NCBI RefSeq assembly: GCF_026914265.1
Contig: NC_069129.1
Span: forward strand, 15,425,571 to 15,489,570
Direction: 5' to 3'
Source: Mya arenaria
Lineage: Eukaryota; Mollusca; Bivalvia; Myida; Myidae
Length of the DNA stretch: 64,000 bases
The translations under genes and the position numbers were made by a program. The notes under the pieces were generated by a model that worked only from the letters and a program-made list of their open reading frames with translations, had not been told where the DNA came from and did not search any database. Below, piece after piece: positions 4,501-46,600 of the stretch; within the stretch, counting starts at the first letter, position 1, and the number at the start of each line of letters is the position of its first letter.

Positions 4501-7500
4501 AAGTACTATTTTCTCATGGTACTATTTTGCTGTAGAGTAAGGTGATAATCAAACAAAAATAATGAAACCTCACCATTTCCAGGCAATAAGTTGAAAGTTG
4601 AACAATGTTCTCTTCCAAAAGGATGTCACACATTCTACAATAGAATGAAGATATTGATTGAACAGTTTAGAAACAATCTAACACTAATTTCTAAATATTC
4701 CCGGAGACAAGATATATTTTTGGAAAAACTACAATGCTCTTATCCAACTGCTTAAAAGTTATATTGTACGCATTCATAAGTGCATGTTGTCAGCTAACAG
4801 GCACAATAGCAAGTACAATTCATACATTGTTTTATGTACTCTGTATGCAATCAACAATGGATTACCTGTCACCCGCTTTGACATAACACAGTAGACACTC
4901 AAAGATGGTTTTGTGGATTTCCGGCTGTGTTACCCTGCCCACCATCTTAACCAAGCTCACAAGTCCTTCTTTTGCAACTGACTCCTGAGTTGTGCTTAAA
5001 CTGAAATACACATGATGTACATAGGTATTTATGAAAGATAATCTACCTCATTGTCTACTTCATTGATTGGATCAACTAACTCTGCAGCTCACTTGGAAAC
5101 AATGTCACAAAATATGTATTTCATTTCGTAAAGGTATGGCCAAGTTTAAAGTCTTTGTAAAACATTGCCATTTCAAAATAGATAATGCCACCAGGGCAAC
5201 CAGATACCTCAAAATATTATCTTCAATCAAACAGATACGCAAAAACTGCTTTATTATTATCACTATATGTTCACAAAATTTCCGCAAAATGGTTGCATCG
5301 TTTTAACAAGCTTTTCAACAAACTAACGTTAGAGATCAAACACAAACGTTTGACACCACTGACAAAGACTGTTATCCAGACTTAGCAGGTGAAACGAAAA
5401 TTGGAGAACTTACCTTCCAAGACATTCTGAAAGGATGTTGTGGAGCTCTTCGGCAAGTTTGGTAGCCTTACATAGGTCCTTAAACACACATTTATAGACA
5501 TACGTTAACAAAACTTACAAAATATACTTTTCTTGCCTGCATCATATTGCATTTAACTAATTACAGTCTCCAGATGTGATTTAAAACAAAATACTAGCTT
5601 TCTTGGGATTCAACAAGTAATGTTTGGTAGAAGACATATAATAAAGTGAAAACTATGAAAGTATATGCAGTACTTCAACTCTTCTTTCTTGAAATTACCC
5701 TAAATAACCAGTTTTACCTTTTCCCAATACACAGCAGAACAGAGGCCGGGAATCTTATGGAGTCTTGAAGGGAACACTCTCTTTCCTGGGGTGGACCGGG
5801 GTAACAAGAACTGTAGACAAAAAAGAATGTAAACTTTAATAGGGAACAGGGGTTGTGTGTATAACTCAAATTGTAAATTTGAACACAAACATTGTTGAGC
5901 AGTGTAAATTGTACTATTTGGCACAAATTTACCAACAATTCAGAATACATCTTATTTTTTCAGCCAATTAAATTGCATAAAGACAATCATTAAGTACTAG
6001 CTAAATCATAAAGGATGTTAACTCTCGCAGGTGTTGGAAGTCCCCCCTTCTGACACTCATACGATGCACCCTAAGTGCAGATAGATTTTTTTTCATTTTG
6101 GCAATTAGTACTTTGTAATTAGTAATTGCGAAAAGTTTAGAAACAAGAGCTGTCACAGAGACAGCGCGCTCGACTATTCCGCCGCTTTTCAGTGTAAGGA
6201 TTGACTTGAAAGTGGTTACATGCAAAACCTTAACCAGAATATCTATGTCAAATAAAAAAGGGGCTATTATTTGAATTTAATGCAAACTAGAGTTATCTTA
6301 CTTGGTTATCTAAGTAGATTGGATGGTTGAATACCATTTTATAAAGTCTCCATGCAATACATCCAGTAGTTGCTGAGACATTAACCTATGTGTGCTTACA
6401 TGCAAAACCTTAACCAGAATTTCTAAGTCAAATAATAAAGGCCCATAATTTGCATTATATTCAAAAAGTGTTACCTTACTTCATTAATTTAGTAGGTTAT
6501 ATAGTTGGGAATACATATGTAAAGTTTCAATGCAATACATGATATATTTGCTGAGATATTGACTTAAATGTGGCTACATGCAAAACCTTAACCATAATTT
6601 CTAAGTCGAATAATAAAGGGCAATTATTTTGCATTGAATGCAAACTAGAGTTATCTAACTTGATTAATTTAGTATATTGGATGGTTGAGTACCATTGTAT
6701 AAAGTTTCAATGCAATACCTCAAGTAGTTGCTGAGATATTAACCTATGTGTGCTTACACGCAAAACCTTAACCAGAATTTCTTAGTCGAATAATAAAGGG
6801 CAATTATTTGCATTAAATGCAAACTAGAGTTATCTAACCTGGTTAATTAAGTAGGTTGGATGGTTGGGTACCATTATATCGAGAATCAATGCAATACCTC
6901 AAGTAGTTGCTGAGATATTAACCAATGTGTGCTTGCACTCAAAACCTTAACCAGAATTTCTAAGTCGAATAATAAAGGGCAATTATTTGCATTAAATGCA
7001 AACTAGATTTATCTAACTTGGTTAATTAAGTAGGTTGGATGGTTGAGTACCATTGTATCGAGTCTCAATGCAATACCTCAAGCAGTTGCTGAGATATTAA
7101 CCTATGTGTGCTTGCACGCAAAACCTTAACCAGAATTTCTAAGTCAAATAATAAAGGCTTATTATGCATTAAATGCAAACTAGAGTTATCTTACTTGGTA
7201 CATATAGTAGGTTGGATGGTTGAGTACCATTGTATCAAGTCTCAATGCAATACCTCAAGTAGTTGCTGAGATATTAACCTATGTGTGCTTGCACACAAAA
7301 CCTTAACCAAGGGGTGACGCCGACGCATGGGTGAGTAGTATAGCTCTCCTTATTCTTCGAGTCGAGCTAAAAATCAAATTTGCTTTAAAAGTTTCTCAAA
7401 ATAGAGCAAAATTTTATTATATATTCCAAGGACGAACACAAAGGCCTACACTACCAGCTATTAAAACATGAGAAAATAAGCAATGATATTACAAAACAAG

Positions 7501-10500
7501 AGCTGTCACAGTGACGAGCGCTCGACTATTCCGCCACTTTTCGGTGTATGGATTGAAAAGTTTTGGCAAAACATGCATGGATTACTGTTAGATAAGATTT
7601 CAATGCAATACATGGTATGGCCAAGTTTAAAGTCTTTGTAAAACATTGCCATTTCAAAATAGATAATGCCACCAGGGCAACCAGATACCTCAAAATATTA
7701 TCTTCAATCAAACAGATACGCAAAAACTGCTTTATTATTATCACTATATGTTCACAAAATTTCCGCAAAATGGTTGCATCGTTTTAACAAGCTTTTCAAC
7801 AAACTAACGTTAGAGATCAAACACAAACGTTTGACACCACTGACAAAGACTGTTATCCAGACTTAGCAGGTGAAACGAAAATTGGAGAACTTACCTTCCA
7901 AGACATTCTGAAAGGATGTTGTGGAGCTCTTCGGCAAGTTTGGTAGCCTTACATAGGTCCTTAAACACACATTTATAGACATACGTTAACAAAACTTACA
8001 AAATATACTTTTCTTGCCTGCATCATATTGCATTTAACTAATTACAGTCTCCAGATGTGATTTAAAACAAAATACTAGCTTTCTTGGGATTCAACAAGTA
8101 ATGTTTGGTAGAAGACATATAATAAAGTGAAAACTATGAAAGTATATGCAGTACTTCAACTCTTCTTTCTTGAAATTACCCTAAATAACCAGTTTTACCT
8201 TTTCCCAATACACAGCAAAACAGAGGCCGGGAATCTTATGGAGTCTTGAAGGGAACACTCTCTTTCCCGGGGTGGACCGGGGTAACAAGAACTGTAGACA
8301 AAAAAGAATGTAAACTTTAATAGGGAACAGGGGTTGTGTGTATAACTCAAATTGTAAATTTGAACACAAACATTGTTGAGCAGTGTAAATTGTACTATTT
8401 GGCACAAATTTACCAACAATTCAGAATACATCTTATTTTTTCAGCCAATTAAATTGCATAAAGACAATCATTAAGTACTAGCTAAATCATAAAGGATGTT
8501 AACTCTCGCAGGTGTTGGAAGTCCCCCCTTCTGACACTCATACGATGCACCCTAAGTGCAGATAGATTTTTTTTCATTTTGGCAATTAGTACTTTGTAAT
8601 TAGTAATTGCGAAAAGTTTAGAAACAAGAGCTGTCACAGAGACAGCGCGCTCGACTATTCCGCCGCTTTTCAGTGTAAGGATTGACTTGAAAGTGGTTAC
8701 ATGCAAAACCTTAACCAGAATATCTATGTCAAATAAAAAAGGGGCTATTATTTGAATTTAATGCAAACTAGAGTTATCTTACTTGGTTATCTAAGTAGAT
8801 TGGATGGTTGAATACCATTTTATAAAGTCTCCATGCAATACATCCAGTAGTTGCTGAGACATTAACCTATGTGTGCTTACATGCAAAACCTTAACCAGAA
8901 TTTCTAAGTCAAATAATAAAGGCCCATAATTTGCATTATATTCAAAAAGTGTTACCTTACTTCATTAATTTAGTAGGTTATATAGTTGGGAATACATATG
9001 TAAAGTTTCAATGCAATACATGATATATTTGCTGAGATATTGACTTAAATGTGGCTACATGCAAAACCTTAACCATAATTTCTAAGTCGAATAATAAAGG
9101 GCAATTATTTTGCATTGAATGCAAACTAGAGTTATCTAACTTGATTAATTTAGTATATTGGATGGTTGAGTACCATTGTATAAAGTTTCAATGCAATACC
9201 TCAAGTAGTTGCTGAGATATTAACCTATGTGTGCTTACACGCAAAACCTTAACCAGAATTTCTTAGTCGAATAATAAAGGGCAATTATTTGCATTAAATG
9301 CAAACTAGAGTTATCTAACCTGGTTAATTAAGTAGGTTGGATGGTTGGGTACCATTATATCGAGAATCAATGCAATACCTCAAGTAGTTGCTGAGATATT
9401 AACCAATGTGTGCTTGCACTCAAAAACTTAACCAGAATTTCTAAGTCGAATAATAAAGGGCAATTATTTGCATTAAATGCAAACTAGATTTATCTAACTT
9501 GGTTAATTAAGTAGGTTGGATAGTTGAGTACCATTGTATCGAGTCTCAATGCAATACCTCAAGCAGTTGCTGAGATATTAACCTATGTGTGCTTGCACGC
9601 AAAACCTTAACCAGAATTTCTAAGTCAAATAATAAAGGCTTATTATGCATTAAATGCAAACTAGAGTTATCTTACTTGGTAAATATAGTAGGTTGGATGG
9701 TTGAGTACCATTGTATCAAGTCTCAATGCAATACCTCAAGTAGTTGCTGAGATATTAACCTATGTGTGCTTGCACACAAAACCTTAACCAAGGGGTGACG
9801 CCGACGCTTGGGTGAGTAGTATAGCTCTCCTTATTCTTCGAGTCGAGCTAAAAATCAAATTTGCTTTAAAAGTTTCTCAAAATAGAGCAAAATTTTATTA
9901 TATATTCCAAGGACGAACACAAAGGCCTACACTACCAGCTATTAAAACATGAGAAAATAAGCAATGATATTACAAAACAAGAGCTGTCACAGTGACGAGC
10001 GCTCGACTATTCCGCCACTTTTCGGTGTATGGATTGAAAAGTTTTGGCAAAACATGCATGGATTACTGTTAGATAAGATTTCAATGCAATACATGATGTG
10101 CTGAGATATTTACATAAATTGAATGGAAAATATTTGAGGTGATACGCAAACTTTAACGTCAATTCTAAGTCGAAAAAGGGGCATAAGTTTGTCAAAATGC
10201 TTGATAGAGTTACCTCCTCTTGTGTACAGATTGGGGGTATGATGGTGAACAAGCATACAAAGTTTCCAAGCCAGATGTCAATGGACTTTGAAAATATATG
10301 AGGTGGTACGCAAACTTTAACATAAATTCTAAGTAGAAGAAGGGGCATAATTTTGTCAAAATACTTGATAGAGTTACCTCCTCCTGTGTACAGGTTGGGG
10401 GCATGAAGTTGAACAAGTGTGCAAAGTTTCAAAGCCAGATGTTAATGGACTTTGAAAATATTTGAGGTGGTACGCAAACTTTAACATAAATTCTAAGTTG

Positions 10501-13500
10501 AAAAAGGGGCATAATTTTGTCAAAATGCTTGATAGTGTTACCTCCTCCTGTGTACAGGGTGGGGGCATGATGTTGAACAAGTGTGCAAAGTTTCAAAGCC
10601 ATATGTCAATATTCGAGGTGGTACACAAACTCTTACAAAAACTTTATCATAACATAAAGCTGACGCCGACACCGACGCCGACACTCGGGTGACTAGGATA
10701 GCTTTTGTATTTTGTACATCCTGACATAAGCTTCGACACAATACGTTTCTTCCACTTGACATAAGCTTTCTCTTAGGCCAAAAAAATAAATACCTGTGTT
10801 TCCGGTAACATGGCGATTTTTTTTTTTTTTTACATTTTCCATATCATACAAATTTCTGTTGCATCAGATCAATTATGTTATATCTACGCGTTTCCTAATT
10901 TACAAAAAGTCTGATAAAACAGCAATGTCTGAAATCATTTCCTTACCTTCGACTAAAGTATTTTCCCGCCAATTTTGCCCATGAAATCTGGTGCTTTTTT
11001 GTATACAATGCTTGTTTATAAGTCGTGATCGGTTTTTAGGAAAAATCCAGCACTTCAATTTCAACAAATCTTTGATAATGTTTTAGCCAAACAGTCAATT
11101 ATCAACTAAATTTTTAATTTGCTTGAGGAAAATCACCGATTTTCTTGTCAGCTCGTGCTCTGACATCACAAATTGTACCGTTTGATCTGCAGCCGACACA
11201 TTCCAATAAATGTGTTAACTTTCACAGGTTTTTGTTTGGATTTCAGTTGATGGGAATTAAATAAGGCAAAATAAATAACAATTGATAATTGCAGATAAAT
11301 TAATATAACAATAAATGAAATGTGTACTGGAACCTGGCAGTTAGCCTGCATGAATTCGCAAAGCCTAATTGTAAGAAGCTTGCATGATATACGCAAAGCC
11401 CTATCATAATAATGTAAGTTTTAATTTGGACATGGATATGGATAAATAACACCGCAAACTATAATTCAAAATATTTTCATTAAAAAGACAACAAAATATG
11501 TTTCCCGTGATCAATCAGGTGTTTTGACCGTAAACATGCGTTTGCCAATTTTAAGATAACGGACAGGGTTTGCCGCTCTCCGCCATTTCGTTTTTCTTTC
11601 AGTCTCGGTAATACACAATCAGGAATGAAAGTACATTCTCCGGGGACATTGAAAGACAAACAACGAAAATAATAACGATATATTTGAAGAAATATATTTT
11701 TTTACGAAAGAATTTAAAAAAAAAAAATGTTTTTACTTTAATGTCTAAAAAAAGATAAGGGTCGGCGAGGAAAAAAATAGGGGGTCGGTCGGGTCACCGG
11801 AAACACAGGTATTTTTTTTTTGGCCTTAGTGTCTTTTGTACATTCTGACATAAGCTTTTTGCTGTGATTTTTGTAGTCTGACGTAAGCTTTCATACTGCG
11901 TATTTAGTACAGTCTAGCGTAAGTTTTCCCTCTTTGTAATTTGTAGTCCGACATAAGGTTTCTCACTGTGTATTTGGCAATCTGACATAACCTTTCTCAT
12001 AGCATTTTTTTGTAATCTGACATAACTTTCTCATAGCGTTTTTTGTAGTCTGACATTTACTTACTCACTGTGTATTTTTAAGTCTAATATAAGCTTTATC
12101 ACAATGTGTTTTGTAATCGGACAAAAGCTTCGACTGCATAATTACTACAGCCTGCATAAGCTTTTCACTGTGTTTTTTGCAATCTGACATAACCTTTCTT
12201 ACTGTGTATTCGGTAGACATTTGCTTTCTCATTGAGTAATTGTAGTCTGCCATTAGCTTTCTCGCTATGTATTTTGAAGTCTGATATAAGCTTTATCACA
12301 TTTTATTAAGTTTCCTGACATAAGCGTTTTTATTACATATTTAGTACAGCCTAACGTAAGCTTTCTCAGTGTGTATTTTGTAGTTCAACATAAGCTTTCT
12401 CCTGTTGTATTTTGTAATATGACAAACGATTTCTCAAGGTTCATTCTGTGCAGCCTAAAATAAACTTTCTCCTGGTTTATTTTGTAATCTGACAGAAGCT
12501 TGCTCACTTAGTTATTCGTAATCTGACATTAATTTTCTTACGGTGTATTTTGTACAGTCTGGTGTATGTTTGGCAAGCTGTCTCCACACTAGTTCCTGAC
12601 CAAGATCCCTCTGTGTTGTTCTAAGCTCTACCACAAACTTCTGGCGTCCAGCGTATTTGGTCTCTTCTTTGGTCTGTACTACCGTGGCAACAAGCGGTCG
12701 AAGGTCCTTTTCATTCACAAAGTGTGACATGTCCCACAATGCATCTCCTGCCCGAATTTCCCAGGTGTCTCCTGTTATAAGTAGTAGTTGATTTATGAAA
12801 TGTAAGCGAACCACTTCCATGAAAACTTCAAAAATAAACTTGGAAAAGTTAGGAAATATACGCTCACTAGGTAAGTTAAATGCAAGCTGTGTATGTATAT
12901 TTTAAGCATTCATCCCCTTTCATACATTTTAAGTTCATAACATACCTATTTTCTCTATGTTGGCCAGCTTGCATTCAATTGCCTGTAATGGGAGCTCAAA
13001 GAACTTGTCAACTGGAAATTCTCGCACCTTATCCCGTGGGACAAAGTCAAGGTCGCCATAGTCTGGGAAAAATATCTCTACTGTGTCATCCTTCACTGTC
13101 TGTATATGGCCCCGGTACCATCTGATACAGAATGATAAAACGTGTAAGTTTTCTAACATATTTCAATAAAACTTGCATCAGTGACAATTGATATAGGAAA
13201 GACATGTTCTATTTTCTAATAATTTTCAGAAATTTCCCATATAACTGGCCTTATTGCTATCTGATATAGGTAAGAAGAAAATCATGTAGCTTTTCATGTG
13301 ACTTTCATAATATTACCATATGAATGGCCACATTGCCATCTGATATAGGTAAGAAAAAAACACATGTAGTTGTTCAAAGGACTTTCAGAATATTTCCACA
13401 TAACTGGCCTCATTGCCATCTGATATAGGTACGACATATGTAGTTCATCATATGCCTTTCAGAACATATTGATTTAAATGGCCTCATTGCCATCTGATAT

Positions 13501-16273
13501 AGGTTAGACATATGTAGTTCATAATATGCCTTTCAGAACATATCTATTTAAATGGCCTCATTGCCATCTATTTAGGTAAGACATATACAGTTCCTATTAA
13601 TATGACTTTGAAAACATATTATTTGAATGGCCTCATTGCCATCTTCTATCGTAAGACAAAACATATGCATTTTTTACATGAAATTTTCCATATAACTAGC
13701 CTCATTGTCATCTGATATAGATAAGACAAAACATATGCAGATTCACATACATCTTACATGCCTAAAATAGTGATATATCTCTACATGCTTACAGTAGTGG
13801 CCTTTAATACTTACAATAGTGACCTACCTCTCATGCTAAAATAGTGACCTACCTCTCCATCCTAACAATTATGACTACCTCTACATGCTTACAATAGAGG
13901 CCTACCTCTCCATGTTAACAACTGTGGCCTATCTCTCCATAATACTAACAATAGTGGCCTACCTGTCCATGCTTACAATAGTGACCTACCTCTCTATGCT
14001 AAAATAGTGACCTACCTCTCCATCCTAACAATTATGACTACCTCTACATGCTTACAAAAGAGGCCTACCTCTCCATGTTAACAACTGTGGCCTCTCTCTC
14101 CATGATACTAACAATAGTGGCCTACCTGTCCATGCTTACAATAGTGACGTACCTCTCCATGCTAACAAAAGTGATCTACCTCCAAATGCTTTCAATTGTA
14201 TTCTACCTTTTCATGCTTACAATATTAACCTACCAGGTTATGCTTGCAATCATGACAAACCCCTTAATGCTAACAAAAGTGACCTACCTCTCCAAGATGA
14301 CAAAAGTAGCCTACCTCTTTATGCTTACAATAGTGACCTACTTCCCCATGCTAACAACAGTGACCTACATCTCCATGCTTACAAGTTTGATCTACCTACC
14401 ACTCCTTGCTTACAATAGTGATTTACTTCTCCATGCTAACAACAGTGACCTACCTCTCCATGTTAACAATAGAGACATAATACTTCATCCTAACAACAGT
14501 GACCTACCTCTCCATGCTAACAATAGAGACATAATACTTCATCCTAACAACAGTGACCTACCTCTCCATGTTAACAACAGTGACCTACATCTCCATGCTT
14601 GCAAGTTTGATCTACCTACCTCTCCATGCTAACAATAAAGACATAATTCTTTATCCTTACAATAGTGACCTACCTCCCCATGCTTACAATAGTGACCTAC
14701 CTCTCCATGATGACAAAAGTAGCCTACCTCTTTATGCTTACAATAGTGACCTACTTCTCCATGCTAACAACAGTGACCTACATCTCCATGCTTACAAGTT
14801 TGATCTACCTACCACTCCTTGCTTACAATAGTGATTTTCTTCTTCATCCTAACAACAGTGACCTACCTCTCCATGCTAACAATAGAGACATAATACTTCA
14901 TCCTAACAACAGTGACCTACCTCTCCATGTTAACAATAGAGACATAATACTTCATCCTAACAACAGTGACCTACCTCTCCATGTTAACAATAGAGACATA
15001 ATACTTCATCCTAACAACAGTGACCTACCTCTCCATGCTTCCAATAATGACCTACCTCTCCATGCTTGCAAGTTTGATCTACCTACCTCTCCATGCTAAC
15101 AATAAAGACATAATTCTTTATCCTTACAATAGTGACCTACCTCTCCATGCTTACAATAGTGACCTACCTCTCCATGCTAACAATAAAGACATAATTCTTC
15201 ATCCTAACAATAGTGACCTACCTCTCCATGCTTACAATAGTGACCTACCTCTCCATGCTAACAATAGTGATCTACCTCTCCATGCTTACAATGGTGACCT
15301 ACTTCTCCATGCTAACAATAGTGACCTACCTCTCCATCCTAACAATAGTGATCTACATCTCCATGCTTACAATAGTGACCTACCTCTACGTGCTTAAAAT
15401 AGTGACCTACCTCTCCATCCTAACAATAGTGAACTACCTCACCATGCTTACAATAGTGAACTACCTCACCATGTTTACAATAACCTACAGCTCCCTGCTT
15501 ACAATTGTGGCCTACCTATACAAGCTTACAATAGTGACCTACCTCTCCATCCTTACAATGACCTCTTCATGCTTACACTGGTGACCTTCCTCTTTATGCT
15601 TACACTGGTGACCTACCTCTCCATGCTTACAATGGTAACCTACCTCTCCATGCTTCCAATAATAACCTACCTCTCCATGCTTCCAATAATGAACTACCTC
15701 TCCATGCTTCCAATGGTAACCTACCTCTCCATGCTTACAATAGTGACATACCTCTAACTGCTTATAATGTTGTCGTACCTTTTCATGTTAACAATAGGGA
15801 CTTACCTACTGGTAACAATCGTGACCTACCTCTCATCGAAGGAGGCATACTGGGCTAGACAGTATTTTCCAACTTGTGGTTCCTGTAGGACATCATCCTC
15901 CTCCTGTCTCTCAACATACGCCCCTATCTCGACCATAAGACTTTCCAGCCTGGAATACAATATAATGTCAAGAACTGGGACTCATTTTTAATAAAATACA
16001 CCAATGCGACAGCTCCGCATTGAAGACAGATGTTTTATTTAAAGATGCAAATTTTTCAAACCTAAAATCCTGAAAATACAATAATTGACTTTGATGCTGA
16101 CGTGTCAATAGTGTTTGTGCTAGGGTGAAAGCATGCATGCGTGTGTGTATGTGCATATATGTATGTAAACTAACTAATTGTAATGAAAATTGGAGATTTT
16201 TTTGAATATCCTGCAGAGAAAAAACTGCATTTATTTCTTGAGATTTGTGATTAGCGACCTAGTTTTTGACCTG

Positions 16274-16312
<39 letters not shown>

Positions 16313-17058
16313 TGCGCACGCACGCACACACACAAAGACAACAATGATAGTATGTGTTCAACCATATTTTACAAATGTTCAAGACTAAATGTACAGAAGT
16401 CTTCTAACAAAGTTTAAGATCACTTGGATAAAAACTATTGAATTTATGACAGGTGAAAATATTTCCGAAGATTTTTGTGACCTTATTTTTGACGTGATTT
16501 GACCTATATTCACAAATATTCATAACAGCATGTTGACAAGTATTTTGAGAAATTTATAACAATTGGATATGACTGTTGACTTTATGGCATTGAATTAAAA
16601 CTTTTAACGCAGAAATGTTAACACCCGCCAGCCCACACAACCACCGTACAAAAGCATTTCTCTTAATTTTAAACTTAAATTGGCATTTTTGATACATATT
16701 TCTATTAATGCATTATCAGCATCAAAGAGAAATCTCATGTTATTACAGGAATAAGAACACATCACAGATAAGCTTCACATTCACATTCAATGACTTACTT
16801 CAATGACTTTTACTTTTGAGTCTCAATGACTTGTTTTGTCTGCATTTATTTCATTAGTCAATGAAAAACAGTAATTTAATAGTTGAGTTAAATAAGAAGA
16901 AATTCATTAATTTAGCTTACTCTTCCAATTTCTCATGTCTCTGTATATAAAGATGATCTGGGGTGTGGACAGATGAGATCACTACCTTATGGGAGGGCCT
17001 GCAGGCTGGTAACACTTCAGTCAACAGCTCCTGGCACATCCTGTGTATGGAAAATGGG

Positions 17059-31674: not shown

Positions 31675-34600
31675 AATTGCTTGATCAAAGCCACAGTTGA
31701 TTGTCACTAGACATAATACATACATGAACCAAATGTCCTATTGCATGGATCTATTTAAAGAATGATCAACCTGATGTCACGTGCGTATTTTTAAAACAGG
31801 AAGTTAGATCAGTGTTATATTCAGCTTAAAATGGCTGAGAGAAAAACTTGAAGGGATTTTTTGTTAAGACAGGTAACAAGATACTTATATTCACTTAAGA
31901 GCGTGTTATTTTATCTTAAGTAAAAATTATGAAGCAATTTTGTGTCAAATTGCCTTCGTAATATTTGTTATCTTTAAATTACATTTCTTAATGGTTCTGT
32001 CCCATAAGTCAGATGTACATATTGTCTCTTCTGTTTTTCAGATGTAAATCTTTAATTAATATGAAATATATAATATTTGGTATGAAAACAATTGTCATTT
32101 TATAAGGAATTCATTTATATTCTTTATAATATAGAACCTTTAAATCATATGCAATATTTCATACATTTTATTTATTTCCTTTTACATCTGAAGGGTTTCA
32201 TAAAGGTTCCTTATTCTTAAACAAACTGTTATGTCTTGTGGCTACATGTTGTCTATGATTTTAGCACCTTTTTTATGTTCTAGATAATCTTTAAGCAACA
32301 GGCTTTGCTAGACAAAATTTGATAGCTAAGCCTGAGTGAGACATTTCAAAGATTCCTGTTATTTCTTAACCTTTTAAAACAACAATATGCTGGATATAAA
32401 AGCCTATAAGAGTCACTTTAATTCAGGACTTCGAATTGTATGGTGTTCCATTACATTAGTTTAGACTTTGTGTTACAAAAAATATTTTATACTTTGTGTG
32501 TGTATGTTACCAAAGTAAGGACATTGTGTTACAAATATATATTTTTAGGAACAGTTTAATAAGTGTGTTTTATAATTTGTGTTACAAATTTAAAATACTT
32601 AAACACTTGTGCTACAAACATTATTGATGACACTGTATAAATTATTTCTACTGGTGTTCCATAGAACTGTATACATGTGTTTATATTGTGGAGATTATTA
32701 AAACTTTAAAACATTCATTGTGAATTGGGTCAGGACTTTTATCCACACATTCACGTCATAATATAAACACCAGACTTATTATGCAAATGACATGTTAAGG
32801 TTACTAAATGTAAAGCATTTTAACATGTATGTATATTAAACTTCCAACGTTTTTCTCATGTAAAAATGTTGCTCCTAATATTGTTAACATATAATGTTTA
32901 ATTTGAATTATAAGTTAAATCAACCAATTAATAATAATAATAATAATAATCATAATAATAATGATTGTGTTTTGTGTCCTAGTTCTTTGTGTAGATTATA
33001 CTTGATGCACTCCGATTGGATAAGCATGACATCATTTAACCAATGATATATGCCGCTACAAAAATCAGCTTTTCTTTAATACAAACATATGTTGTCAGTT
33101 ACACTTTTTAAAGAACAAATACTCAGAGCATACGGCTTATTTCTAATAGCAATGAAAATATTTTGTAGATGTAAAAATAAGTATTGATCACATTTATTCT
33201 TCTTATGCTGTATAAACGCAGTAATGCAAGCGAGCAAATGACCAAAAAGCGCTGGTGCGTTCATACAGCATACACTCAAGAAAAAATGCGATCAATCATT
33301 AATTAATAATAATAGTTAATGTATTTATTGAAACACATTAAACATGACAGTTCCAGCAAACGTGGTTCGACTCTACTTGATTTTTGAACACATACATGCA
33401 ATGAAATGTAAACATACACATACTAAAAAGTTAATGTATGTTAATATTAAAAGAAGCACACATCAATAATTATATAAAACAATATAAGTTTATTATACAT
33501 TTTGGTTTTTAAGATGGAGCAACAAGCGGAACAAGTGTTGTCTCTACGTTTGTCCCGTGTTTTGGACGACATCGGGGTGAATAGGTACATGATCGCCAGG
33601 AGGAGGAGGACGTGGCTGATGATGGAGACAAGCAATACAATCAGTGATTCATTAGAAGGTACAAACATTAAAATATATCAGTTTGGCAGCCAGAGTGAGG
33701 GAACTACAACACTTGGTATGCAATCAGACATTGATACATTGCTCTGCATTGATTTTCCCGTCATATTGGACTGGGATGAGTGGCAGCAGGGAAAGCATCA
33801 ACTCCTTGTTGTCAAGACAGACCAGTTCCCACCCCAGCACTGTTGGCTTCAATGGCTGTTACCTGACATTCCATTACCAAGGACACATGTCATACTTCCC
33901 AGTGAGGTGATAGACAATGAAGGCAGAGTGCTGTATACAAACTCTCAGATGGAATTACATGACATTATCAGAGAATGTAGCTCATCAGGTGAACTAGTGC
34001 AACATGGACCATCTAAAAGCTATGATGAAAATGATCATGTTATTGCCCATCACTGTTGCAGTCTCCCAAATGATTGTCAGTTCCTGTTCCACAGACCCCG
34101 GCCTGGACACTGGCCCAGACCTGACACACTGGCCAGGGCCAGACAAACTGGAGTGTTTCTGGTGCCACAGGGATATTCAGAGTGTCCTTCAAGACCAACC
34201 AGATGTCGCTCTACTGCACTTCATGTCACCCCAAATAACCCATATTATCCACAGTCAAACTGGGAATGGAGGTTTTCTACATCAATGATGGAAAGATTAC
34301 TGATGTTTGACATGAACACTGTGCAGTACAAGACATATGTATTCATTAAAATATTAAGAAAAACTTTCTTAAAGCCTGTTGTTGGAGACCGTCTCAGTAC
34401 ATTTCACATGAAGACTGCAATGCTGTTCACAATAGAGACATATCCACCAGAGATATGGAGAGAAGAAAACCTTGTACAGTGTGTGATCTACTGTCTGACC
34501 ACACTTCGCAGGTGGCTGAAGTTGAAACACTGCCCACACTACACTATAGCTAGAGTGAATCTTTTAACAGGGAAACTATTCAAACATGAACTCCCAATAT

Positions 34601-37600
34601 TGTCTGCAATGCTTTCCTCCTTAATGGAATCCAATATGCCCTACATTCCACAGATAGACATGGATTTACTTGGAGACAAGATGCTGGGTATAAGCAGAAG
34701 CATTGTTTGTGAAAGTTACGAAAGGAAGAAAAACAATCAACTGATCCTAACAAATCTGAATAAAGAATACAATGATTCAATAGTAGCAGATCATGAAGAT
34801 GTCATAACTGACTTTTCTATGTGCACTTGGGATGAGATCAATGCACTCATTATAGAACATCTTCACACTTTACAACAAATATCCCAAAATGGGACAGACT
34901 TGGAACAAGAATCAGCTACAGTGATCATGCCTCTGTTGTATAGTTCATTTGCTTCCCTCATAGCCTCAATGTGTATTCACATAGGCCAATCAATAACACA
35001 GGACATTCTCCACCTGTACCACCTGTCCTTTGACTCTGATCTTCTTTCCAGTAGACTTAAGTTTGCCTCCATGTTGTACTGCAATGGGCAGTATGATGCA
35101 GCAGCAAACTGCCTGGTCTACTGTGAGGGACTGCTGGGACCAGAAGTGTGGCAATCATGCAATTGTATTGGAAGACTTCAAATCAAACCAAGCAGTAAGT
35201 TCCTAGACAAGACTGAACATTCATCAAATAAAGACATGCTACAGAAGTTTACTGCCATATGTGTATATTTCATGCCTCAAGAAATGTGCTGTGTACCAGA
35301 ACACCTGGTGTATGAAATGTTCAGAACTGTAGGAGATGAAGACAGACAAAAGAGACACCCAGCACATCATTATAAGTGGATGGATCAAGTCGTGATTGAC
35401 TGTATCCCTTTCCTCTACTATCTGCAGTACCTCACATACAGGCAACTGCACATGCATCATAGGAAACATGCTGCCCAAAAAAAAGCTTAGCCACTATACA
35501 TTAAGGGACAGTCATGGACATGGTCACATAGACACAGCTTTAAACATGCTGGGCAACTACTATGAACTTGAAAACAGACTGGATGTTGCATGGAAATGCT
35601 ACTCCAAATCTTTAGAAATCTACCCCAGAAATAATGCAGCCAATTGGCATGTGGCAAGAATACTGCATCAGCTAGTTAACAGCTAAATACTGCCGTAAAT
35701 AAAATTGAAGTATTCAAGTATTGGTGATATCCTCACCAATGAGCATGTGCAACATATAAAATTGAAAAAAATATAATGAGACTTACTTTGTTTTGATCAT
35801 AAGTGCTCTGGGAATGTGGACCTTCCCTTGAATCATCTTGAACAGTCGCTCCAAGTGCTGAAACAAGAGGCATAAACAACTGTCTGAGCATAAAGAGAAA
35901 AGAGAACTTCCTTGAATCAATTTTAATACTACAAATGTAATCAAGAATTATAAACTGTACAAAATATTATTAAGAATGGTTTTTTTAACTGTTTATGTAT
36001 ATTTTCTAGCTATGATGGAAATATTGTCAATGAATTTTCACTGTAATACTTACATCACAATGAATATATCAATGATAATGAATTGTAATACAATTTGTTG
36101 ATAAACTGTATTACCATAAAAACTGTATTACCATAAACGACTGTGTATAGCACGCATCCATAAAAGCAGGCAAATAATACATAAAGAACTGGAAAAAAGA
36201 CCTAAATTGTCTACACTAAAATTATCTTATATCATAAATTAAAAAATCCATAATGTTTGCTTACAATGCCAATTTTAATTATAACAAGAGCTGTCACAGA
36301 GACAGCGTGCTTGACTATTTTGCCGCTTTTCAGTGTAAGGATTGGCGAAATAGCATGTAATACATTAAAGGATTATAGCTTGTATATAATGATATTCTAA
36401 GTCCAATAATAAAGGGCCATTATTTGCAAAATACAAATATCTAACTTGGTTATTCAAGTAGGTTGGGTGGTTGAGAACCATTGTATAAAGTCTCTAGCAA
36501 TACATCAAGTAGTTGCTGAGATACTAACATACGTGTGTTTACATGCCAAACCTTAATCAGATTTTCTATGTTGAATAATGAAGAGCAATTATTTGCATTA
36601 AATGCAAACTAGAGTTATTTTACTTGGTTTTTGAAGTAGGTTGGGTGGTTGAATAGCATTGTATAAAGTGTCAACGCAATACATGAAGTAGTTGCTGAGA
36701 TATTAACCTATGTGTGCTAACATGCAAGACCTTAACCAGAATTTCTAAGTCGCATAAAAAAGGGGCAAAAATTATATAATATGCAAGATTATAAGTATCT
36801 TCCATGGCCGAGAGTGTAAGATAGGTTCATTCCGACCCGAGCGTAGGGTGTTTTGCTGAAACGAGGTTTACCTATCTTACACCAGCGGCTATGGTAGATG
36901 ATTTTTCTCCCACCTGATTTTTTGCTGGAACTCTTTTGTGGAACTCTTTTGTGATTAGTGAAAAAAAATTGCGTACGGATATGCAATAATTCGTGGTTGT
37001 CATGGATATTTGCGCAGTGATTCACAGTATGTAAATGGTTTGATCGGTCTTTAAATATGCATGTTTATTTATCATTTAAATACAATATGGTCAAAAATCA
37101 AAAACCATAATTAAGACACAGCCATTTTTTTCTCAGGAATTCTCTAGGAAAAAAGTGAGTCCTATACACAGTCAACCTGGTACAATTCAGAAAATAAAAT
37201 TTCCTGTTTTGGGGTTATAGTGCCTTTCACATGTACTTCTTTATCTAAGCCTTTATGAACAAAAAAGACTGGTTAGTGCTTAAATTAAATCTGAACCAAA
37301 CCTAGACACATAAAACCTTATTGTCATACTTACTGAAGGATTTTCATCAGCCAGTCCGTTCCTAATCAGTTCTGTATGTACAGAAAACTTGTTAATGATG
37401 GTGCGTGTTTCCCCAAGCTTTAATCGCATCACGAGAGGGTCCAGCCAGAGGCGATGACCGAGACGTAACACAATCTTGCCCTCCATTTCTCGACCATGAA
37501 GTTCCGTATGCACAAACACACTTGCCTGTTGGAAACGGAACAATGAAAGAATATGCTAATTAGCTCAATACAGGAAACACAAGCTGATTGCTCATGATGT

Positions 37601-40600
37601 TTAAATTTATGAAGTTATGTGTTTAAATGCAATTGTGTGTGAAAATGCAGTGATTTGTGAGAATGCAGTTTTATGAGAATGCAATTGTGTGTGAGAAATG
37701 CAGTTTTATGTGAGAATGCAGCTGGGTGTTTGAATGCAATTGTGTGTAAAAATGCAGTGATTTGTGAGAAAGCAGTTTTATGAAAGAATGCAGCTGTGTG
37801 TGAGAATGCAATTGTATGTGAGAATGCAGCTGTGTGTGAGAATGCAGTTGTGTGTTAGAATGCAGTTTTATGTGAGAATGCAGTTGTGGTTGAGAATGCA
37901 GTTGTGTGTGAGAATGCAGTTTTATGTGAGAATGCAGCTGTGTGTGAGAATGCAATTGTGTGTGGGATTGCAGTTTTATGTGAAAATGCAGCTGTGTGTG
38001 AGAATGCAGTTTTATATAAGAATGCAGCTGTGTTTGAGAATGCAGTTGTGGTTGAGAATGCAGTTTTATGTGAGAATGCAGCTGTGTGTGGGAATGCAGT
38101 TTTATGTGAGAATGCAGCTGTGTGTGAGAATGCAGTTTTATGTGAGAATGCAGCTGTGTGTGAGAATGCAGTTGTGTGTGAAAATGCAGTGATTTGTGAG
38201 AATGCAGCTGTGTGTGAGAATGCAATTGTGTGTGGGAATGCAGTTTTATGTGAGAATGCAGTTCTGGTTGAGAATGCAGTTGTGTGTGAAAATGCAGTGA
38301 TTTGTGAGAATGCAGCTGTGTGTGAGAATGCAATTGTGTGTGGGAATGCAGTTTTATGTGAGAATGCAGCTGGTGTGAGAATGCAGTTGTGTGTTAGAGT
38401 GCAGTTTTATGTGAGAATGCAGTTGTGGTTGAGAATGCAGTTGTGTGTGAGAATGCAGTTTTATGTGAGAATGCAGTTGTGGTTGAGAATGCAGTTTTAT
38501 GTGAGAATACAGCTGTGTGTGGGAATGCAGTTTTATGTGAGAATGCAGCTGTGTGTGAGAATGCAGTTGTGTGTGAAAATGCAGTGATGTGTGCGTATGC
38601 AGATGTGTGTGAGAATCAAGAAGTATGTGAGAATGAAGTGATATGCAAGAATGCAGTAGTTTAAGAGAAAACAGTAGTTTATGAGGATGCAGAATGTAGT
38701 GATGTGTGTGAGAAAACCAGAATGCAGTGAGGTGTGAGAATGCAATCATGTGTTAACATGAAGTAATGTCTGAAAATCTAGTTATCCATTCAGAGAGCAC
38801 AATTATGTTCAAACCTTGACTGTCCATTTAATGTCCTTGTCTTTCGGCTTCACTCTTCCTAGAAACACCTCCACTGCCTTGGAAATAGAGATGTATGTAC
38901 ATGTTTATGGATGTATCATGCAGTTCATAACATCTATAACATTATTATGAAACGTAATCACAATCATTAAAATAAACACAACCCTGCAAGACATACAATG
39001 GTTACCGGTAATATGCTTTTTGAAATTGCTCAAATTCTAAAGTTTACAGCAGGACTAGTTACACATCTTCATGTCAGGCACTAGTGTAAGAAGTGGGGAT
39101 TGTTCAGTCAAATTGTCATATTTAGACATGGTATGAATGGTGTGAGAGTCCTCTCAGAGATTCACTTCATGCTTTAACTCATCTCTTGGAGGTTGTCAGA
39201 CCTGCTAATTTAAAGCATTGAATTTTGAAACTTTAGGATAATCATATTTATTCCACGAAAGACATTTCCGAAGTAAAGTAATTATTGTTGATTTATGTAT
39301 ATCACAGTAGGAAATCTGGGAAAGATCCCTAAATTACTCAGAACTGTCCCATTACTGGATAAGCCACGACTCTCATGTCAAGGTACAGCTTATACAGGTT
39401 GTAGGCTGACCAATCAACACAACAACATCCCCAACTTATTCAGAACTGTTCCATTACCTGAAAGGCAATAGCTCTCAAATCCCCAGGCAGCTTATACAGT
39501 TTGAAGACCGGAATCTGTTCTAACCTACCACTGTCAATAAACATGATCTGAAACACACATAGCAATCCTGATTAAGTATGGCCTACAGTCTCTTCCAACA
39601 TTTGTTATCAATTTTTAATCGAATACCTTGAACAGTTTTTGAGTCATGGCCAAGGTTTATGTTTTTGAAAGTGGAAGTTAATGATGCCACTCCCTCGACA
39701 CTGCCTACAAGAATAACACCAAGGCTATGACATAACATATATTTTCATTCCTATGAAGTTAATATGTAGCAACACAGATAAGGCGATGTTGCAGCCCTAC
39801 AGGATTTTAAAACACATTTTAGAACACATTTTATAGTCAAAAAACATCTTTTTATTAATTGTATTCATCAGTTTTGCAAATGTTTTTATCAATTTTTCAA
39901 ACTTAAATGCAATTTATTTAAATTAAGTCTGTGATGATCACTTTTAATTAAAGCATACACATACAAACTAATGTAATAGAAATTGAATATTTCCATCATA
40001 CCACGGCATCAGTGGTTGCAGCCCCTTTTTCATGGCTCCCTTGCTCTTTCAACTGTAGAACCTGCACCCTATAGTTCATCAAACATTATTTCAATCAGGA
40101 GGATATTTGTAAAGTAAATCAGGGTTCGAATTTAACTTTGAGGAGCACTCGCAAAATGAAAAATCAACTTGCCATTTTATTTGTTTTATTTATTCCCTTA
40201 TAATATTGTCTAATTTAAGTAGATATTAACACCTAAGACATATTATGAATATAAAAAAGTATCAATCTTGAGTGACTCGACTACTAGAACTTGTTGATGG
40301 CTTAAATTATTTTTGGGGGGTACGGATGACTCATCAGATGCTGGCCGCTTTTTGATAACAAAGCTGTCCAATAATTTGACATTGTTAACTTTGAGGGGGG
40401 TATATTTACCTTCGCCATCGGGTAATACCCATTCGGCGAACACGCTACAGATTTCATTAACTGATTATTAAAAACAATAACACTATAAATTTAGAATAAA
40501 TAAAAGCAACAGTAAATGTAGCGTGGATGCTTTGGACTATAAAATATATCAAAGTCTATTCACTTTGGCAGTTGAGTGGATATATTCAAAGGTTGATGGG

Positions 40601-43600
40601 GTTTACATATAGTGCGCGAAAGTGCTATTTTTAGCCAATGATTGAGCTAGGTGATAACGTCATTTGTATTCACTTTGTATTATGCACGCCTCGGAGCATC
40701 CCGGAGAGATTCAAGATAAAACTCGGCCTTTTCCGTATTTGTCCTATTTTTGAAAACTTACTTGAGCGTGACTCCGTACTGTCTTCTCTTTACTGGTAGT
40801 GTAAACATGCCACTTATAGGTTGTTTACACTCGACTATGTAGCGCAGTTAAGTTCATGTTTATTCTACTTTCCTTTTAACATTTAGTGGTCTAGAAAAAG
40901 CCACTCACAGAATTTTGCCAGCTTGAAAAAAAGTCACTCGCAATTTGCAAATGTCGCTCGCATTTTGCGAGTATGCGAGTCTAAATTCTAACCCTGTAAA
41001 TTTCCCCCTATTCACATCATGGCAATATGTTTAATCTCCATGTGTTGAACAGTAATGGTGAGTTCAAAATCCTATTAGCGGTTGAAGAGAAATGGAGCAT
41101 AGTCATATGAACTTTTATGAGTAAGTGTGATCTTGACCTTAAACTTAGCTGGTAGTAAAATGCCTATGCACATTGTTTCAATATGGTGAACATTTCTGGT
41201 AAAAAAATTTTTTATCTTTAAAGCAGTTCAATAGATATGGAGTGGACATGAAAAGTATTCATATGACCTTTGACTTCTTAGCATGGACTTTATCAACTCA
41301 GATGGTAACGTAACAAGTGCTCTGCATATTTACTTAATATGGCAAACATTTGTGGTGAGTTATTTCAAAATCCATCAAGCTGTTCAATTCATACCGAGCG
41401 TACACAAAATATGACATCTAAATATGACATATGACCTTTGACCTGTAAGCATAACCTTGACCTTGAACTACTGGTTGAAACATTCACTTTGAACATTGTC
41501 TCAATATGATGAACAAGCAAGTCAAGAGATTGACCTTCGACTTCTAAGTGTGACCGTGACCTTAAACGGACCCACTTGTAACATGCGTTCTACAGGTCAT
41601 CTCAATATGTGAAACAGTTCAAATTTCAAAATCCTTTTAATGGTTCAAGCAATATGGAGTGGACACAATTTGAGACAGACAGACAGATGGACAGACAACT
41701 CAAGTAAAATCAAAATATGTTGCCTGATTTAAGGAGAAGACACAATTACGTAAGTGAGTGTGTAAGTGAATAGAGTTGTTGTTTGTCTGAAGGTTAGATA
41801 ATGCACATTGTCACCTTAATGCAAAACTCACTATCTGCTTCTTTATATATACATGTATGTACTTATTGAGTGTTTGCCCTAAGGTGACGAGGATGTTAGC
41901 TCTTGACTACCTGCCTAGTTGTAAATGTTCCAACTTTAATGTCAATGTTTCGACAAAAAAAAAAGAAAACACATTGTTTTCTGCATGTTCATAAACAAAT
42001 TACAAATTTACTAGTTGAAATTGATGTGTATAGTCATTGAAAATAAAAAGAGATTATTTTTTTTTATCAATTAGGAAATGCTCAAAAACTGACAATCTGA
42101 ATATTTCTTTTAACAAGAGCTGACGTAAGACAGCACACTCGACTACGCCGCTTTGACTTAGAAGTGAATACAATAATGATGTAATATTACCAAGTTTGGT
42201 CTCTTTTCGTCAAACGTAACTAAATTATTCAACACATAAGGTGACTTTGATGCTGCCCTGCCCTGAAAATGTGGTTAAAAATATACAAATATGCCTTTTA
42301 AAAGAAATCCAATGAAATTAAATAAAAAAAATCATAATTATTAAGGGTTAAAATGGAGTAATATTTCTTGTTGTAAGATGGTCGTAAATAATTTTTAATT
42401 TTATTAAGGGTACATTGAATGAAATGTATAGAAGTTTTTTTTATTAAAATCCCAACTTGTCCTTAAATTTAACTTGCCCTAAAACTTTAACCTAAGTCAA
42501 TCAGGGGCCATAAGATGTATTAAGGATAATATTGTGTCATGTAACGTCATTGGGTGATGGTCCTAAACAATAATGTTAAGTATTAAGTCAATTGAATGAA
42601 GGGTATAGAAGTTATTAATAAATATCCCAACTTGCCCTAAAACTTTAACCTAAGTTTCATAGTCAATCAGGGGCCCTAATTTGTATAAAAGATAATATGG
42701 AGTTATCTAACCTCTTTATGTGATGGATCTGAACATCTGTGTGAAGTATTAAGTCAATTGAATGAATGGTATTGGAGTTTTAAGTGAAAATCCCAACTTG
42801 CCCTAAATCTTGAACCTGCCCTAAAACTTTAACCTAAGTCAATCAGGGGCCATAACTTGTATTAAGGATAATATGGAGTTATGTAACGTCATTGTGGGAT
42901 GGTCCTGAACAATTGTGTGAAGTATTAATTCAATTGAACAAAGGGTATAGAAGTTATTATAAATATCCCACCTGCCCTAAAACTTTATCCTAGGTTCCAT
43001 AGTCAATCAGGGGCCATAATCTGTGTAAAGGATAATATGGAGTTATCTAACCTCATCATGTGATGGCCTTGAACAACTGTGTGAAGTATCAAGTCAATTG
43101 AATGAAGGGTATGGGACTTATAAGTGAAAATCCCAACTTGCCCTAAAACTTTAACAGGAAGTCGATGCCTACGCTGGGGCGAGTAGTATAGCCCCTCTGA
43201 TTCTTCGAATAGTCAAGCTAAAAACAATATTAACTGAGCAATTTGTGCTCAGGTGAGCTAATAAATAATAAAATTATGTCTTGTAAATATCTTCATCCGA
43301 GAAACTGGTATTTGATAGTAAACAACAATTTTTTTTTTTTTAAAGTTATATATCTATTTTGTCCTATGTTCAAAAAACATAATACATTCTTGTTTATGAT
43401 ATTAAAGGAACCTCTTACCTAAAGAACATCTCATTTTCCTGATATCCACAAATTTCACCAATCCTGGCACCAGCTGTGGAAAATAAAATGTACGAGGTAC
43501 AAACATACCATAATATATGTACCTGGTAAGTTAAAAATATCTGTGATACAAGTTGGATTGCATTTTGATATAAAATACTTGAATGACTATGTTTTGGGCA

Positions 43601-46600
43601 TGAGAATACATTCCTATGCTGAAAACACAATAATTAAGTATCATTCATCAATATAGGTTAGAAGCAAATTTTGGTCATCAATTATGGTTTTAATCCAATT
43701 TCCAATCCCTAGCAGTGCAACACCCATGCAGAGCTGATGGTGCTTTAGCATGATAAAAGAACAGAGAAAATAGCTGTTACAAGAGGCAACAAATATTGTG
43801 CTGGGACATATTCAGACTGAGTTTCTAGAAGATTGGATTAACTCTGTTCAATGAAAGGAATACCAAGTCTACTCACAGTGCCGTTTCTGGTGAGCCTGAT
43901 CACTGTACCAGAGGGCAAGGTTCATCTGTAGCTTAGAAAAGTCAGCCGATAAATCCTCCATCTTGCCCCCCTCCAACCTCCTCACCCCTAGAACTCTCAC
44001 AAAGTAGTGGCTAGCATCTATTACATGGGTCACCAGAACCTGCAGACAACTATCATATTATTATTTTGTGATTACAAAAGTGTTACAGACGCCAAATTTA
44101 TTCTATTCAAAATTGTTCCGGGTCGTTTTCATATCTAATCTTGTTCTGCCAAGAATTCTATTATTTTAACAACTTTTATCATGGCCCAACCAAGAGTATT
44201 TCATTTAATTTTCGACTAAAAATTATATAACCTTTTTTTGGAGAAGACATGAAAACATAAATGTTCACAGTAATCAATAATACAAAAATAACAACACATG
44301 TCCTAATCATCTAACAAGCATGCAACAGGAATGGACAATATTATGCACAAAATCATCAACCTTGATCTCCCCTTCATTTGGCAGCCAGTCTGTACTTGGG
44401 TGGACATCCACATCAGGCATCACTGAATGGCGGTATCGGCACCTCCAAACATCCCTGAAGATCAAGCAATGTTTTATACTCAGTGATCAAGTTGTCATGT
44501 CTTAATGGACCAAGTTCTTTATTGTCATGTTATCATGGACCAAGTTCTTTGTTGTCATGTTACCATGGATCGAGTTCTTTGTTGTCATGTTATCATGGGC
44601 AGAGTTCTTTGTTGTCATGTTATCATGGACAGAGTTCTTTGTTGCCATTTTATCATGGACTGAGTTTTTTGTTGTCATGTTATCATTTACAGAGTTCTTT
44701 ATTGTCATGTTAACATGGACCGAGTTCTTTGTTGTCATGTTATCATGGACTGAGTTCTTTATTGTCATGTTAACATGGACCGAGTTCTTTGTTGTCATTT
44801 TAACATGGACCGAGTTCTTTGTTGTCATGTTATCATTTACAGAGTTCTTTATTGTCATGTTAACATGGACCGAGTTCTTTGTTGTCATGTTATCATGGAC
44901 TGAGTTCTTTATTGTCATGTTAACATGGACCGAGTTCTTTGTTGTCATTTTAACATGGACCGAGTTCTTTGTTGTCATGTTATCATGGACTGAGTTCTTT
45001 GTTGTTGTGTTATCATTGACTGAGTTCTTTGTTGTTATGTTAATATTGACAGAGTTCTTTGTTGTTATGTTATCATGGACAGAGTTCTTTGTTGTTGTGT
45101 TAATATTGACAGAGTTCTTTGTTGTTATGTTATCATGGACAGAGTTCTTTGTTGTTATGTTATCATGGACAGAGCTCTTTGTTGTTATGTTATCATTGAC
45201 AGAGTTCTTTGTTGTTGTGTTATCATGGACAGAGTTCTTTGTTGTTGTGTTATCATGGACAGAGTTCTTTGTTGTCATGTTATCATGGACTGTGTTCTTT
45301 GGTGTCAAGTTGTCACTGTCTGAGTTCTTTGTTTTGAGTTGTTGAGTTATCATGGACTTATCATGAATTAAGGCTATATAAGTTAGTAATCATGGACAGA
45401 GATCTTTGTTGTTAAAAAATCATGGACTTAGACTTTCTTTATTATCAAGTTATCCTGGACTGAGGTCTATGTTGTCAAGTAACCACTGTCTGAGTTCTAT
45501 GTTGCCAATTACGGTAATCATGGCCGGAGTTCTTAGTTGTCAAGTTATCATGGACCGAGTCTGTTGTTGTTGTGTTAAAATAGACAGACTTTTTAGTAGT
45601 CAAATTATTCTGAACTGAATTCTTTGTTGACAAGTTACTATGTACTCAGCCTTTAGATATCATGGTATGATGGACTGTGTCGTTGATATCAAATTTTCAT
45701 GGGTAAAAAATTATTATAACAAGAGCTGTCACAGAGACAGCACACTCGACTATTCCGCCGCTTTTCAGTGTAAGGATTAAAAAGTTTTGGCAAAACATGC
45801 ATGGATCACTGTTATATTAGATTTCAATGCAATACATGGTGTGCTGAGATATTAACATAAATGTGGTTATATGCAAACTTGTAATAATAAAGGGCCATTA
45901 TTTGCAAAATACAGTTATCTAACTTGGTTATTTAATAAGGTTAGGTGGTTGAATACCATTGTATAAAGTCTCAATGCAATACATCAAGTAGTTGCTGAGA
46001 TACTGTCCTATGTGTGCTAACATGCAAGACCTTAACCAGAATTTCTAAGTCACATAATAAAGGTGCAAAATTTATATAATATGAAAGATAGAGTTATCTT
46101 ACTTGATTAAATAAGAAGGTAAAATGGTTGGGAGCCTGTGTGTAAAGTTTCAATGCAATACATGATGTATTTGCTGAGGTATTGACTTAAAAGTGGTAAC
46201 ATGCAAAACCTTAACCAGAATTTCTATGTCGAATAAAAAAGGGGCCATTATTTGAATTAAATGCAAACTAGAGTTATCTTACTTGATTATTTAAGTAGAT
46301 TGAATGGTTGAGTACCATTTTATAAAGTCTCAATGCAATACCTCAAGCAGTTGCTGAGATACTGTCATATGTGTGCTAACATGCAAGACCTTAACCAGAA
46401 TTTCTAAGTCACATAATAAAGGTGCAAAAATTATATAATATGAAAGATAGAGTTATCTTACTTGATTAAATAAGAAGGTAAAATGGTTGGGAGCCTGTGT
46501 GTAAAGTTTCAATGCAATACATGATGTATTTGCTGAGGTATTGACTTAAAAGTGGTAACATGCAAAACCTTAACCAGAATTTCTATGTCGAATAAAAAAG

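Follow-up and report, generated by a model that had tools for sequence, protein, structure and literature searches.

An intron of a Tudor-domain gene in Mya arenaria, probably grown inward from duplicates of both its splice borders

Results

A Tudor-domain gene with a repeat-filled intron

The window analysed here is a stretch of 64,000 nucleotides from contig C8 of Mya arenaria (15425571–15489570; the genome searched comprises 1.216 Gb in 18 contigs). It has a GC content of ~35% and contains large tandem repeats. The minus strand carries four exons, denoted A to D, each between an AG and a GT; spliced together, they encode 215 residues in a single open frame (Table 1). Pfam Tudor gives 48.5 bits when only the exon-C frame is searched and 86.2 bits with the spliced product, of which residues 19–206 align with TDRKH structures. 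The phase-2 intron between exons B and C splits the R of D-E-R-W-Y-R-G. Given the joined open frame, the Tudor and TDRKH matches and this split residue, coding evidence supports 15829 as the donor and 13122 as the acceptor. In the three minus-strand frames of ~13–43 kb, Pfam returned this Tudor exon and otherwise weak matches only, including EIF2B-type repeats located in the translated array A4.

Elsewhere in the window, a stretch from ~5.2 kb (5182–9790) seems to be repeated ~2.48 kb further on, with the same open frames recurring; it holds two 179-bp arrays of six units with identical consensus. On the plus strand, a 670-codon open frame at 33478–35487 matches the Mab-21 C-terminal domain (cGAS-like family) and lies between minus-strand exons. 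More minus-strand exons follow at 37331–44455, with the arrays A4 and A5 beside them. We take these exons to resemble the C-terminal part of TDRD12; three frames tried among them gave no Pfam match.

Table 1. Features of the Tudor-domain gene and of the tandem arrays (positions in the window).
Feature	Position	Strand	Remarks
Exon A	16921..17040	-	AG and GT flanks; open frame in spliced product
Exon B	15830..15949	-	120 nt; ends GATGAGAG before GT, phase 2; Tudor domain continuous across join
Exon C	12946..13121	-	176 nt; starts ATGGTACCGGGGCC (R-W-Y-R-G)
Exon D	12542..12771	-	230 nt as drawn; last 6–9 residues outside TDRKH alignments
B–C intron	13122..15829	-	2,708 nt, phase 2; ~95% A1 and A2 (TRF coordinates)
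Array A1	13757..15834	-	77 units of 27 bp, donor-derived; TRF and wrap-around alignment
True donor (first A1 unit)	15803..15837	-	donor G at 15829; alignment, junction scoring
Array A2	13122..13737	-	units of ~74–79 bp, acceptor-derived; TRF 13224–13737, degenerate down to true acceptor at 13122
Array A3	11830..12552	-	34-bp units copying end of exon D; TRF 11844–12552
Outlying A3 piece	10706..10772	-	separated from main block by inserted element
Array A4 (control)	37626..38692		
Array A5 (control)	44491..45333		

Array A1 copies the donor

The initial annotation of this locus had placed a donor-like array directly at the 5' border of the intron, and this was borne out. Both TRF (13757–15834, period 27, 77 copies) and wrap-around alignment yield 77 units, the first of which is the real donor (GATGAGAG in the exon followed by GTAGGTCACGATTGT in the intron), with 15830 as the last exon base, as claimed. 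The 27 positions of this first unit include 7 departures from the consensus, two gaps accounting for three of them. The other units are largely donor-like as well: GT is kept in 61 of 76 (0.80), 62 of 76 score above zero as 5' splice sites, and 32 reach the score of the real donor, 3 of these 32 surpassing it, on a scale built from vertebrate-type rather than host-derived frequencies.

A 50-nt piece at the exon B junction aligns with the A1 unit at a score of 38, which was reached by none of 2000 random 50-mers drawn from the window without arrays and simple repeats; the junction is also the best match of the unit outside the array within the window (38 versus 32 for the next). The annotation had read each unit as an exon end plus donor. 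The likeness is indeed strong on the intron side; on the exon side it is weak, extends over ~8–9 nt and is equalled by 64 of 3000 random 27-mers and by 5 of 1000 shuffles.

Distant units of A1 are no less similar to the junction unit than near ones (Spearman -0.09, P 0.42), and a gradient of age along the array is accordingly rejected. Mean agreement with the consensus is 20.0 of 27 positions in the first three units, compared with 23.1 in the others. A second type of unit, with TTATG replacing GTAGG, has spread within the array.

Array A2 copies the acceptor

The donor-derived array had been described as filling the intron. A1 accounts for 2,073 of the 2,708 nt, and most of the remainder is taken up by a second, acceptor-derived array, A2 (13224–13737), which is absent from the initial annotation; in TRF coordinates, the two cover ~2,587 of 2,708 intron bases. 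A2 contains seven decoy acceptors by a stricter pattern and eight by a looser one. Read in the direction of the gene, every decoy combines a pyrimidine-rich stretch (9–13 of 16) with an AG and with sequence copied from where exon C begins (ATGGCAATGAGGCC, compared with ATGGTACCGGGGCC in the real exon), and the real acceptor is the last A2 unit. The pattern ATGG....G.GGCCAT is common to A2 and the exon C start, a likeness equalled by 1 of 3000 random sequences and by none of 1000 shuffles.

A3 and the junction comparison

A third array, A3, clearly resembles the end of exon D by junction scoring. In four gene copies from elsewhere on the contig (L021, L022, L024 and L025), GT is absent at this position, and the TRF listings of L021 and L022 contain no 34-bp array. 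In the window, the frame at the end of exon D runs on for nine codons and then meets a stop. A3 may thus copy either a donor or the end of the coding sequence, and exon D may be the last exon. Inserted in A3 at 10781–11821 is an element of ~1.0 kb whose terminal inverted repeats agree at 27 of 29 bases.

Thirteen junction pieces were compared with the five arrays A1 to A5, in a window that also holds microsatellites and arrays of 160–360 bp period; three of the 13 junction coordinates (37331, 44039 and 43875) had been placed visually and miss AG/GT by one or two bases. For A1, A2 and A3 the matching junction was in each case the array's own, a fit equalled by 0, 3 and 0 of 2000 random 50-mers; for the control arrays A4 and A5, none of the 13 junctions matched. 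Chance likeness of junction and unit is rejected by the random and shuffled controls.

The array accompanies every exon B

Copies of the gene, open ones beside broken ones, occur in two regions of contig C8, at 14.8–15.7 and 28.7–29.0 Mb (L018–L032). Exon B has 13 matches in the genome (79–100% identity) and exon C has 9, all on C8. Behind all 13 exon-B matches stands A1, on the same strand and 0–24 bp away as judged from BLAST blocks; the weakest match, L026, has 79% identity, an unreadable exon end and the array at ~22 bp. The initial annotation had named as evidence against it an array away from the exon border in related species; among the paralogues, on which this comparison was run, array and exon adjoin in 13 of 13 cases. 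The array is thus anchored to this junction, with the 13 copies sharing ancestry and not counting as independent cases. A1 units have at least 388 matches in the genome; among the matches listed, all are on C8, and their clusters coincide with the 13 exon-B loci when matched by eye. On the matches listed, an introner or other dispersed repeat is therefore rejected.

Array size varies widely, from ~27 units (L028, L029) through 120 (L018) to some 200 (L026 with L030). Two blocks of A1 do not directly follow an exon B; one, in L026 (12–628, into L031), is inverted, and the other lies in L027 (3802–4308). At 12–1639 of L026, two 27-bp arrays on opposite strands meet head to head, from which a long hairpin is possible. 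In L019 and L020 the array holds an insertion of ~3 kb. L024 and L025 have broken frames and, between exons A and C, neither exon B nor A1, with two to three A2 units retained; the exon-B copies L028 and L029 are located ~3.6 kb past exon C of these two copies.

A tree built without L026, from the other 12 exon-B copies, places the second exon B of L027 and L028–L030 on the long branches; all of these have the array. The first 20 intron bases agree with the unit at 16–17 positions in the window, in L023, in both exon-B copies of L027 and in L030, a level that no other GT 20-mer in the window equals; for L028 the agreement is 12 of 20, and 54 of 7086 other GT 20-mers are as good. The genome search yielded no exon B without the array, the next nearest sequences being remote Tudor proteins of 23–34% identity, which leaves no array-free form from which to read the ancestral state and the direction of growth. 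Pairwise comparison of five open copies over 215 codons gives 0–10 synonymous and 1–11 non-synonymous differences, and thus no clear sign of protein constraint in the recent copies.

Stable edges and a changing interior

In seven copies, the length of the B–C intron ranges from 2,018 to 5,682 nt. Of the six other copies that possess both exons, four (L018, L019, L021 and L023) were aligned with the window over this intron. The first 110 intron nucleotides are identical between the window and L018, and none of the four alignments has a gap of 15 nt or more within the first 200 nt. Over the remainder of the intron, each alignment contains 9–11 such gaps, several of exactly 27 nt. The edges of the array are stable, and the interior gains and loses units.

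Decoy sites and the reading frame

When the frame of exon B is continued past the true donor in the window, it runs AGG TAG, and the letters are identical in seven other copies. In copies with the usual donor, use of a downstream donor would therefore bring a stop one codon later. Of the seven decoy acceptors, six meet a stop within three codons in the exon frame and the one at 13339 does so after 14. In-frame alternative exon ends are rejected on these grounds, and the suggestions of the initial annotation that the array supplies variable exon ends, or is tolerated because any unit can splice, find no support.

Discussion

The arrangement of A1 and A2 resembles the minisatellites over exon–intron borders known as 'mirages', here at both ends of one intron. 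We consider it likely that both splice borders of the B–C intron were duplicated and grew inward as minisatellites. Short tandem duplications over the 5' border (27 bp) and the 3' border (~74–79 bp) would have started the two arrays, which would then have expanded inward until they made up nearly the whole intron; for A1, growth by slippage from the junction, as proposed in the initial annotation, is plausible. Such change would be close to neutral, because copies of the border fall inside the intron while the outermost donor and acceptor remain beside their exons. Exon definition would favour the outer sites, and splicing between inner sites would leave the outer pair to complete removal. Judged from sequence, the outermost sites are probably still those used. 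Unequal exchange and slippage would reshape the interior fast and spare the edge units that carry the real splice sites. Within this model, the direction from junction to array, near-neutrality and the choice of splice sites are the parts that we infer.

The reverse order is improbable: a minisatellite inside the intron would have spread to the exon, one of its units replacing the original donor. Taken by itself, A1 matches the exon only briefly and weakly, so that this array might have preceded the junction unit and supplanted the donor; a diverged copy, the second exon B of L027, has a full 27-bp junction unit in register, which also speaks for a takeover. However, A2 and A3 share longer coding stretches with their exons, and a takeover must explain how conserved Tudor codons (W-Y-R-G) came to be copied. 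Three arrays in one gene, each at its own exon border, and the presence of the array at every exon-B match also argue against it.

Another rival account sees the inner units as backup donors, a nearby unit taking over when the real donor is lost and so easing migration of the splice site. L023 fits this idea: its donor reads GA instead of GT, the same change abolishes the in-frame stop, and the next unit, TAG/GTAAGT, 24 nt on, would lengthen the exon in frame by eight codons. Exon D of L023 is, however, one base short and followed by two stops, so that L023 may be a dead copy, and we regard such a backup role as unlikely. A broader reading joins this idea to inward growth: the intron would be rebuilt from its own two splice sites and persist through gene duplication, with a working outer pair, inner sites that are nested, harmless or in reserve, and a lost donor that could move one unit inward in a single step, as the sequence of L023 would allow. 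We put this combination forward tentatively, as less likely than not.

Least of all do we favour an array of functional decoys under selection, in which many donors bind U1 and guard against premature polyadenylation or slow splicing. The density of strong sites could be taken to speak for it, with 16.4 per kb in A1 as strong as the real donor, compared with 0.16–0.18 per kb in the window outside 11–18 kb and none on the opposite strand of A1. Against it, the donor GT ranks only 8th of 26 dinucleotides in conservation within A1, with TT, TG and AT elsewhere in the unit kept better; the GT being no better kept than the rest of the unit, selection for many functional donors is not indicated. Unit number also differs about sevenfold between copies, and the TTATG type of unit has spread, which makes a selected decoy function very improbable.

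Close parallels to this intron are on record from lancelets. The amphioxus mirages, tandem repeats over the exon–intron borders of Adh3 and of the globins BflGb6 and BflGb9 (PMC3087553), share several features with the array described here, as far as the accessible text of that report goes: the borders are spanned, at the 5' or the 3' side; many units retain AG/GT; array length is unstable, here between paralogues with introns of 2,018–5,682 nt; and edge units escape homogenisation, as with the 20.0 versus 23.1 of 27 above. In the present intron, A2 spans its border clearly on both sides and A1 weakly on the exon side, and duplication affects the donor (A1) and the acceptor (A2) of one intron. 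Mirages are further marked by normal splicing in spite of decoys, a feature on which the present comparison covered the reading-frame consequences of decoy use. By contrast with the mirages in that text, the arrays here occupy both borders of a single intron and ~95% of its length, and an array is present at all 13 exon copies. BflGb6 is given there with 3 and 6 units in two haplotypes, whereas the donor units here number ~27 to 200.

In lancelet PGBD5, tandem repeats of 60 and 108 bp lie over 5' as well as 3' splice sites (PMC3902484). The part of that text available likewise shows imperfect duplications with both kinds of splice site in one gene; the copies are few (a 108-bp triplication), and that part describes no whole intron made of them, as is found here. 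Internal tandem repeats in human segmental duplications (PMC2812944) are similar in being minisatellites, some at exon–intron boundaries, that vary among recent paralogues. They differ in averaging 4 units of 30 bp, with half in coding sequence, and the portions consulted discuss them as a source of new introns, not as splice-site copies filling an intron. The intronic minisatellite of earthworm metallothionein (PMC12783039) also forms large, copy-variable arrays in the intron of a duplicated gene, but has monomers of ~180 bp and, in the available sections, no link to splice junctions. Compared with the mirages as described in the texts consulted, three traits of this intron look new: that arrays stand at both of its ends, that their units are so many, and that the array persists wherever the exon has been copied.

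The intron offers a natural test of how the spliceosome selects one donor among dozens that are equal or better. It also bears on intron growth, since the material for growth is here the splice sites themselves. Thirteen exon copies of differing array length, one of them with a changed usual donor, constitute ready-made variants. In the accessible portions of the open-access literature searched, mirages are named from lancelets only; the source of this DNA is Mya arenaria, and if the host is indeed not a lancelet, border-spanning minisatellites would extend beyond the lancelets.
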